Assembly (NCBI GenBank): GCA_937864295.1 | Contig: CALMJA010000015.1 | Coordinates: 1-64,000 of the forward strand | Direction of reading: 5' to 3' | DNA: 64,000 nt | From: an uncultured Candidatus Altimarinota bacterium | GTDB lineage: Bacteria > Patescibacteriota > Gracilibacteria > BD1-5 > UBA6164 | Part shown: positions 53,764 through 56,418 of the stretch, piece by piece | Numbering within the stretch: the first letter of the stretch is position 1 | Layout: each line of letters opens with the position of its first letter | Program-made: the position numbers and the translations under genes | Notes under the pieces: generated by a model | Database searches by the model: none | Told to the model about the DNA's origin: nothing | What the model saw: only the letters and a program-made list of their open reading frames with translations

Positions 53764-54300
53764 ATGCTAGATTTAGATTTTTTATATATTGTATCTTTTT
53801 TAATTTATATATTATTTCTTGTAATTTTTTTATTTAAAAAATTCAGTTTTAGAAAAATTATATTTTGTACTTTTTTTTATTTTTATATTGTATTTGTTTT
53901 AGGAGTTACTTTTTTCCCAATTCCTATTTCTTGATTGAAAGAAATATCAATTTATTATACAAATACTAATAATTATATTCCATTTTCATCTATTTTTGAG
54001 ATTTATTTAAATAATAATTTACCATTTATTGTTAAATTTAAGCAAATTATTGGTAATATTATACTTTTTATTCCTATGTGATTTTTTTATCCATTTATTT
54101 TTAAATATATAAATCATTTAAAATATACATTGTTTATATGATTTTTCTCATCTATTTTTATAGAATTTTCTCAATTCATTATTTCATTATTTTTATGATT
54201 TAGCTATAAAGTTACAGATATTGATGATGTTATATTGAATACTTTTGGTTTTATGGTTTGATTTTTAATTTATAAATTAATTAAAAAATATTATTATTAA
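53764..54300 (+). CDS. VanZ-like membrane protein (178 aa)
   Basis: Five hydrophobic segments and the VanZ pattern: NYIPFSSIFEIY (about 73-84), IIGNIILFIPMGFFYPF (about 97-113), FIEFSQFIISLFL and TDIDDVILNTFGFMVGF near the C-terminus. In enterococci VanZ gives low teicoplanin resistance; in general the domain is a membrane module of unclear activity. Confidence 0.85.
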
Positions 54301-54307
54301 ATAAAAA

Positions 54308-54343
54308 GTTTCCCCCCATATCCTTTCGGATACGGGGGATTTT
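54308..54343. terminator. GC-rich terminator
   Basis: CCCCCATATCC-TTTC-GGATACGGGGG followed by a T-run on the plus strand. Its G/C content is far above all other terminators in the window. It ends the foreign-looking gene on the minus strand and can also end the VanZ-like gene. Confidence 0.85.
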
Positions 54344-54706
54344 TTACTTCACTGATTCGAGACTTGCCTTGAATTGCTTTTTCAAAACAGTGAGTTTGAA
54401 AGGGGTATCAACGACAATTGTTCTCACAATTGCCGTGAAGCCGATTTCATCATTTTCAGTTCCTGGTGTTTTGCCCTTGAGGATTTCAAAAGAGCCATAA
54501 GTGACCAAAAACTCAGTCACGGAGTCAAAGAGTGAACCGTTGAGATGCAATCTCAACAACACAGGTTTTTCACCTTTGTCTACGTAATTGTGATCGTTTT
54601 TTACTTTTACTCGCTTTCTAAATAACTTATAAATCCGCTCTTCATCTTTTGGTGACAGTCTTCCATTGATGTTTTGAGGAAGACGCATATTGAGAGTTTT
54701 TTTCAT
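54344..54706 (-). CDS. Foreign-looking small protein (120 aa)
   Basis: I do not recognise the family. The protein (MKKTLNMRLPQNINGRLSPK start; FDSVTEFLVTYGSFEILKGK in the middle) is a small alpha/beta domain without signal or membrane segment. The nucleotide style differs from all neighbours: GC content is clearly higher, codons such as CTC, GGC, CGG, GTC and CGT are used, none of its 7 glycines is UGA, and a Shine-Dalgarno CGGAG precedes the ATG by 7 nt. It has its own TTGACT/TAAAAT promoter and GC-rich terminator. Probably acquired by transfer from a standard-code bacterium. Confidence 0.8.
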   Translation of the reverse strand: MKKTLNMRLPQNINGRLSPKDEERIYKLFRKRVKVKNDHNYVDKGEKPVLLRLHLNGSLFDSVTEFLVTYGSFEILKGKTPGTENDEIGFTAIVRTIVVDTPFKLTVLKKQFKASLESVK

Positions 54707-54740
54707 GGTTTGCTCCGAAATTGTTGAAAAACGCTTTGGT

Positions 54741-54768
54741 ATTTTAAAATATTTTTCTATTTAGTCAA
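54741..54768 (-). promoter_or_regulatory. Promoter of the foreign-looking gene
   Basis: Minus strand: TTGACT (54763-54768), 16-bp spacer, TAAAAT (54741-54746), about 35 nt before the ATG at 54706. Confidence 0.6.
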
Positions 54769-54855: not shown

Positions 54856-56418
54856 ATGAATTTCAATGAATTAAATATTATTCCACCATTATTAAAAGCA
54901 ATAGATAAAGCAGGATTTAAAACTCCTACTGAAATCCAAGAAAAAGTTCTTCCTTTGGCTATGAAAGGGAAAGATATATTATGATCTGCTCAAACAGGTA
55001 GTGGTAAAACTTTGGCTTTTGCTTTGCCTATTCTGCAAAGACTATACAACAAAGACCAAGAACTTTGACTTGTAGATTGAAAAAAAACAAGAAAAATTAG
55101 AGCATTAGTTATAGCTCCAACTAGAGAGCTAGCTATACAAATTTGAGAAACATTTGCACCTTATTGTACAAATACAAATTATAAATATACAGTTATTTAT
55201 GGTTGAGTAAATCAATTTCATCAAGTTAAGGCGATTGAAAAATGAGTTGACATACTAATTGCTACTCCAGGTAGATTAGAGGACTTAATTAGCCAATGAG
55301 TAATCAAATTATCGTATGTTGAAATACTTACTTTGGATGAAGCTGATAGAATGCTTGATATGGGGTTTTTATGAGATGTAAAAAAAGTAATTAAAAGAGT
55401 TCCAAAATCAAGACAAACTTTTTTCTTTTCAGCAACTATGCCAAAAGAAATAAAAGAACTAGCAACAAGTGTTTTACTTAGTCCTGAAATAATTACAATT
55501 CATAAAGTTGATGCACCAGTTAGTGCTATAAAACAACAAGTTTATCATGTAAAAAGCAGTAATAGAAGACAATTATTACAATATATAGTTAAGAAAAAAG
55601 AATATAGTTCTATTTTAATATTTGTTAAAACAAAAGATGATACAGAATATATTATGGAATATATTAAAGCTGTATGAATAAAATGTGATAATCTTCATAA
55701 ATTTAAAGCACAAAATGCTAGACAAAAAGCATTAAACGCACTTAAATCATGAGAAATAAAAGTACTTGTAGCAACTGATATTGCTTCTAGATGATTGGAT
55801 GTTGTTGATTTATCATGTGTTGTTAATTACAATATTCCTTTGGCTCCAGAAGATTATATTCATCGTATTTGAAGAACTGCAAGAGCAGGGAAAAAGTGAG
55901 TTGCAATAACTTTTTGTATAGAAACTGAAAAATCAAATTTAGAAAAAATAGAAAAAACAACTGGAATCAAACTTGAAGTTATTTCAGATGAGGATTATAA
56001 AAATGAAGTTATTCCAAAATGAAAAATCATGTGATATGATAATTTTGATGAAAATTGAAAAGAAAAATTTAAGAAAAAAACAAGAAAAAGTATATGAATT
56101 AAATTTTCTAGCAAAACTTCAAAAGATAGTAAAAGTTTAGAAGAAAAAAGATTTAGTGATAAAAAAACAAGTCTTAAAAAAACTTGAAATACAAAAGTTT
56201 CAAATAGAACTACTTTATTTAAAACTGAATCGGTTAGAGATAAAGGACCTAAAACTATTTGAGAAAAACTTGGTATAAAATCTAGAACTGCAAAAAAACC
56301 AGTTTCAAAAAATACTACTAAAAAACCAATTTCAAAAGCTCCATCTAAATCAAATCCTACTAGAAGTACTTGACCTAAAAAAGCACCTATTAGAAAATGA
56401 CCAAATAAAAAAAGATAG
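54856..56418 (+). CDS. DEAD-box RNA helicase 1 (RhlE-like, 520 aa)
   Basis: Q motif with TPTEIQEKVLP (about 27-37), motif I SAQTGSGKT (about 44-52), Ia APTRELA, GG, TPGR, II LTLDEADRMLDMG, III FSATM, then the second RecA domain with IFVKTKDD, ATDIASRGLDVVD and HRIGRTARAGKKG. After about 380 comes a 140-residue Lys/Ser/Thr-rich basic tail, likely to bind RNA. It unwinds short RNA duplexes. A TTGTTT/TATAAT promoter is at 54796-54822. Confidence 0.95.

Follow-up and report, generated by a model that had tools for sequence, protein, structure and literature searches.

Agrobacterium, with its T-DNA, is the familiar case of a bacterium harbouring genes that bear the expression signals of its host. 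Among bacteria that read UGA as glycine (code 25), the closest described counterparts are the code-11-compatible phages of Gracilibacteria and Absconditabacteria, i.e., phage genomes, typically with stops other than TGA (PMC10746230), and Patescibacteria possess a distinct type IV secretion system (T4SS), mostly without a relaxase (PMC12102498).

The locus described here, a 120-aa gene in a window of 64,000 nucleotides (the whole stretch of DNA that was analysed) from an uncultured Candidatus Altimarinota bacterium, resembles each of these in part. Like the genes of code-11-compatible phages, this gene and the class to which it belongs are tied to code-25 bacteria, are readable in both codes and lack in-frame TGA (none among 177 glycines in 37 copies). 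Unlike them, the class consists of chromosomal, syntenic, single-gene units, about half of them TGA-ended, that stand singly among native genes rather than in a phage or prophage; no relatives were found in phages or, for two families, in IMG/VR. As in effector delivery by the T4SS of epibiotic Patescibacteria, activities would reach another bacterium; however, effectors are proteins made in the producer and exported, whereas here the gene itself would be written for translation by another cell. The likeness to T-DNA is an analogy only (host-formatted genes in a bacterium), as we saw no T-DNA-like borders or cluster, the recipient is presumed bacterial and the transfer is putative. The open-licence literature that we searched contains no description of such a class.

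The window, represented by 59 non-overlapping ORFs with lengths of 80 aa or more, is written in code 25, with 780 glycines encoded by TGA and 356 by GGN (69% TGA). The 120-aa gene is the only TGA-free ORF among them, and the chance of finding none of its seven glycines encoded by TGA is ca. 0.31^7 = 3e-4. Its GC3 is 0.40, as compared to a mean of 0.087 (SD 0.021, maximum 0.161) in the other 58 ORFs, and its coding sequence has a GC of 0.38 in a neighbourhood of 0.15-0.30. The gene and its signals, i.e., a TTGACT-N16-TAAAAT promoter, a Shine-Dalgarno sequence and a terminator 3' of the stop, are as follows:

54344..54706, minus strand: 120-aa standard-code-compatible gene, stop TAA (GC3 0.40; glycines 7 GGN, 0 TGA)
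54763..54768, minus strand: -35 box TTGACT, read from the sequence and kept in four congeneric copies
54741..54746, minus strand: -10 box TAAAAT, spacer 16, read from the sequence
54713..54717, minus strand: Shine-Dalgarno CGGAG, 7-11 nt upstream of the ATG, read from the sequence, with GGAG kept in four copies
54303..54339, minus strand: intrinsic terminator, hairpin CCCCCGTATCC-GAAA-GGATATGGGGG plus T tract, read from the sequence and kept in four copies, both arms being retained (RNAalifold)

The neighbours of the gene are a VanZ-like ORF on one side and a DEAD-box helicase on the other. All of this agrees with what had been read from the letters of the window, namely a gene with its own promoter, Shine-Dalgarno and terminator, clearly raised in GC as no other, free of UGA and placed between a VanZ-like gene and a helicase; the description of a gene that carries its own signals and can be read in either code was likewise right, and proved to apply to a genome-wide class. 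Both flanks vary among relatives: the VanZ-like side (53764-54300) turns over, with other genes in its place, and the first DEAD helicase (54856-56418) is absent from this spot in genomes G003 and G005.

Native genes of the window's own genome and of the congeneric G005 encode about 73-74% of glycines by TGA and have a GC3 of about 0.09-0.10, and a tRNA with a UCA anticodon is present in G005. A single release factor gene was found in each of 10 genomes, and in the six that were read it is of the RF1 type (PET/PAT motif, no SPF). With this one release factor, of the RF1 type, the genomes tested lack any known means of terminating at UGA.

The history of the 120-aa gene is not that of a newcomer. 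Copies 88-92% identical to it occur in three public MAGs of the genus, and orthologs occupy the same place, near MscS/helicase genes, in four of six congeneric genomes; in G002 the locus is intact and the gene is missing, i.e., an empty site. Homologs were recovered from 9 of 48 family genomes, representing five genera (its own and four others), and in another genus the homolog adjoins the same helicase. No credible homolog was found in a sample of 380 genomes of the phylum, and no relative in phages, plasmids or IMG/VR (in the latter, close relatives only were sought). Among the four congeneric genomes, the alignable block begins exactly at the -35 box and ends with the terminator, and the sequences on either side cannot be aligned. 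Neutral sites of the neighbouring genes are saturated (4-fold identity of about 0.35-0.7 in MscS and CYTH), while the 120-aa gene has a 4-fold identity of 0.80-0.86, a GC3 of 0.37-0.46 and a dN/dS of 0.09-0.16 among the four orthologs. GC3 in the nine homologs exceeds the local mean by a factor of about 1.5 to 5, and none of their 59 glycines is encoded by TGA, as compared to 47-77% nearby; homologs using UGA for glycine, as native code-25 genes do, had been named as a finding that would speak against the foreign cassette, and none turned up. As the raised GC3 and the avoidance of TGA persist despite saturated neutral sites nearby, the composition is maintained and not a residue of import.

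Since the window copy ends in TAA, the evidence for TGA as a stop comes from its orthologs and from the class. The G005 copy carries TGA exactly where the orthologs have TAA, and its message, if read in code 25, would run through the terminator; the copy of G040, from another genus, is also TGA-ended.

A census of about 1.5 Mb, comprising 971 kb of G005 and ca. 522 kb of the genome to which the window belongs (the window being counted in), revealed isolated table-11 ORFs with raised GC3, a Shine-Dalgarno and a terminator in both genomes. These were curated, partly by hand, with manual removal of spurious ORFs of high GC, some of which apparently overlie structural RNA genes; 27 remained (about 26-27 single-gene units), 12 ending in TGA. 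They stand singly among native genes, mostly with a GC3 two- to fivefold higher, and a TTGAC-type promoter precedes 23 of the 27 (85%) but only 54 of 550 native genes (10%; p=3.6e-18), the class not having been picked on the strict TTGAC motif. Because this first search used GC3, we repeated it with a GC3-blind scan (TTGAC-N15-20-TAnnnT, Shine-Dalgarno, table-11 ORF and terminator, outside native genes), which retrieved 14 units from the 971 kb of G005 (stops: 7 TGA, 6 TAA, 1 TAG), all with a GC3 of at least 0.20 against 0.098 in native genes. With eleven alternative -35 words, the scan returned units already known and a single new one, of 158 aa and with TTGAA. The products include an acyl carrier protein (ACP; PP-binding, E=8e-13), a 418-aa CitMHS/NhaD-type transporter and small membrane and soluble proteins, most of them without a known domain.

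Homologs of class genes were then collected from six congeneric genomes by homology search regardless of TGA content. In 37 copies of twelve families there are 177 glycines, none encoded by TGA, and the stops are TAA in 17, TAG in 2 and TGA in 18; the 18 copies from outside the two seed genomes, which had not been picked for an absence of TGA, give the same picture (82 glycines, no TGA; 8 TAA and 10 TGA stops). UAA, UAG and UGA interchange as stops at the same syntenic C-terminus: a 101-aa family, syntenic in five genomes, ends in TGA, TAA, TAA, TGA and TAG. TGA is the conserved stop of the MSFQKM family, in all five of its copies, one in each of five genomes (position backed by flanking genes), and of the ACP in both G003 and G005, with conserved synteny. 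If read in code 25, 18 of the 23 copies that stop at TGA would meet no in-frame TAA or TAG up to the terminator's end, and their messages would be non-stop. The dN/dS is mostly 0.1-0.4 (0.13 for the ACP) at a dS of commonly 0.3-1.5. At the level of sequence comparison, these data demonstrate that the class genes evolve under the standard code and purifying selection inside code-25 genomes.

The messages are also unusually structured. Compared to synonymous shuffles, the coding mRNAs of the nine homologs of the 120-aa gene fold strongly (z -1.7 to -4.7, as against about -0.4 in 13 control pieces), these z values being for the CDS only (that of -4.24 including the terminator is inflated), and in nine of nine homologs folding is stronger on the sense than on the antisense strand. 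The class as a whole has a mean z of -2.0 versus -0.39 in native genes (p=1e-6). No RNA fold common to the genera was detected (consensus about -0.5 kcal/mol), the signal being one of general strength, and it may serve message stability.

We consider it probable that this class of compact one-gene transcription units, the 120-aa gene among them, is kept by selection in the standard code owing to translation in a setting in which UGA terminates, most likely the cytoplasm of a host or prey bacterium. As the epibionts are host-dependent and the class would be translated where UGA stops, that cytoplasm is the simplest site. The DNA or mRNA of the class genes would be delivered to the host before translation, with a type IV secretion-like machine as one candidate route, and the products (ACP, NhaD/CitMHS-type transporter, small proteins and the 120-aa protein) would act inside the host. 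On balance, though with rather more caution, we also lean towards a wider proposal, that code-25 epibionts keep roughly 20 or more chromosomal genes in their host's standard code, delivered as DNA or mRNA for expression there, i.e., a 'bilingual' genome. A delivered gene should evolve under the code of the presumed host, and what we observe, in assemblies that are MAGs, is evolution under the standard code. The ACP fits such a host-addressed role: it is rare in the family (3 of 48 genomes, one weakly), and in the plasmid collection it best matches, for the most part, AcpP of gammaproteobacteria (54-59%), the group that contains the hosts known for the related Absconditicoccaceae (PMC8080830, PMC13059738). 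TraG-D_C-type ATPases were detected in nine genomes, with mostly weak scores. Against translation in the host we count that the delivery machinery is only hinted at, that the TTGAC promoters could be used by the native RNA polymerase too, and that a 400-kb sample of G022, from the one further genus covered by the blind scan (52% of native glycines encoded by TGA), gave five units, none of them TGA-ended. In G001 one TraG-D_C domain lies, unlike many other copies, in a 483-codon TGA-free frame (L181; G001:C16:13897-14139), perhaps a recently arrived conjugative element.

The strongest rival, in our view an unlikely one, is a standard-code mobile pool, i.e., an unsampled phage, satellite or plasmid that repeatedly seeds code-25 chromosomes, or recombines within them, at fixed sites. 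Self-contained units, patchy presence and different class genes at one site in different genomes are in keeping with it, as are the known code-11-compatible phages of Gracilibacteria (PMC10746230). However, no relatives were found among 50,697 phage or 72,556 plasmid records, nor in IMG/VR for two families, several families hold a syntenic position, at large synonymous divergence, in as many as five genomes, and the units occur singly among native genes. The sequence-only reading had opted for a recent event, a foreign cassette inserted whole after passing a code barrier. Raised GC and the lack of UGA gave it some appeal, and it is now very improbable, being already contradicted by orthologs that are syntenic in four genomes, next to genes with saturated neutral sites, and by a family spread over five genera. 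The standard-code or plasmid donor that it anticipated did not emerge from phages, plasmids, IMG/VR or the phylum sample, and the suggested check of other strains did reveal variable presence (four of six congeneric genomes, with the empty site in G002), yet no recent import. The proposed filter on uptake fares no better, as it would remove the members that stop at TGA.

Two further explanations place translation in the epibiont itself. Unusual decoding, e.g., a stage in which UGA stops (the UCA tRNA being absent, or an unrecognised factor present), would account for the TGA stops without any transfer; we judge it improbable, as the tested genomes have only one release factor, of the RF1 type, and as sense UGA abounds in native genes, so that a UGA-stop stage would halt most translation. 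Alternatively, these could be highly expressed native genes with structured mRNAs, whose non-stop messages are regulated by trans-translation as in arfA and brfA. Strong promoters, strong folding and the 18 of 23 TGA-ended copies that are non-stop in code 25 agree with this, but within a family TAA, TAG and TGA replace one another, a normal stop is present in about half of the copies, the rpsA, rpsB and tsf genes keep a low GC3 and some sense TGA, and an acyl carrier protein has no obvious gain from such control, which leaves it hardly probable.

The 120-aa protein itself has no match in Pfam, PHROGs or NCBIfam, and a Pfam scan of all nine family members returned noise only. Its predicted fold (pLDDT 81) combines a helix with a beta-sheet and has no PDB or BFVD match at E<=0.001. 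The family shares some traits with ArfA, BrfA and ArfT, i.e., a short LFRxRV-like motif in the helix, a structured coding mRNA and, in some class copies, messages that are non-stop if read in code 25. We nevertheless rejected ArfA as its identity: the PDB profile search gave E=0.95; in an alignment of 10 ArfA sequences against the family only 9 residues align, with a score reached by 2 of 150 column shuffles, i.e., near chance level; the KGKGSYxRK and KH motifs found in the ArfA set are missing from all nine members, which carry an extra beta domain of ~70 residues; and the genomes lack RF2, the partner of ArfA, each having one release factor gene, of the RF1 type. A full-length tmRNA match was missing from 4 of 9 gene-bearing and 4 of 39 gene-less genomes, a comparison confounded by assembly incompleteness; G000, G001, G010 and G040 are without such a match and may just be incomplete assemblies.

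Genomes normally use one code for their own chromosomal genes, and here a defined subset evolves under another, so that the second code would act as a built-in label of the translation site. If confirmed, host-addressed translation would amount to nucleic-acid-based host manipulation by Patescibacteria, would suggest what code reassignment could be used for (keeping genes addressed to the host apart from those addressed to the cell itself) and would allow host-acting genes to be listed from sequence only. The question of how uncultured epibionts affect their hosts thereby becomes directly testable. For annotation, code-25 gene calling will extend or miss class genes.

A few further loci deserve mention. 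One and the same intergenic site holds a single class gene in G000 (L084:11531-11749, contig C105) and two different, TGA-ended ones in G005 (C3:460787-461318), suggesting exchangeable slots. A 282-aa unit with a TGA stop (G005:C3:784112-784960) lies at a distance of ~3 kb from the ACP gene that ends in TGA and has only a sub-threshold PgdA_N match. Among the five units of G022 is a purL-like ORF of 1262 aa, named by eye (C1:307107-310895; 112 GGN, no TGA), and this genome also contains a 433-aa ORF (C1:115833-117134; 21 GGN, no TGA), each with a TTGAC promoter and a terminator, which are possibly large members of the class. Many class leaders measure 31-43 nt from the -10 box to the start codon, and in several there is a motif resembling GCxATTTT or a small hairpin, which may be a signal common to them.
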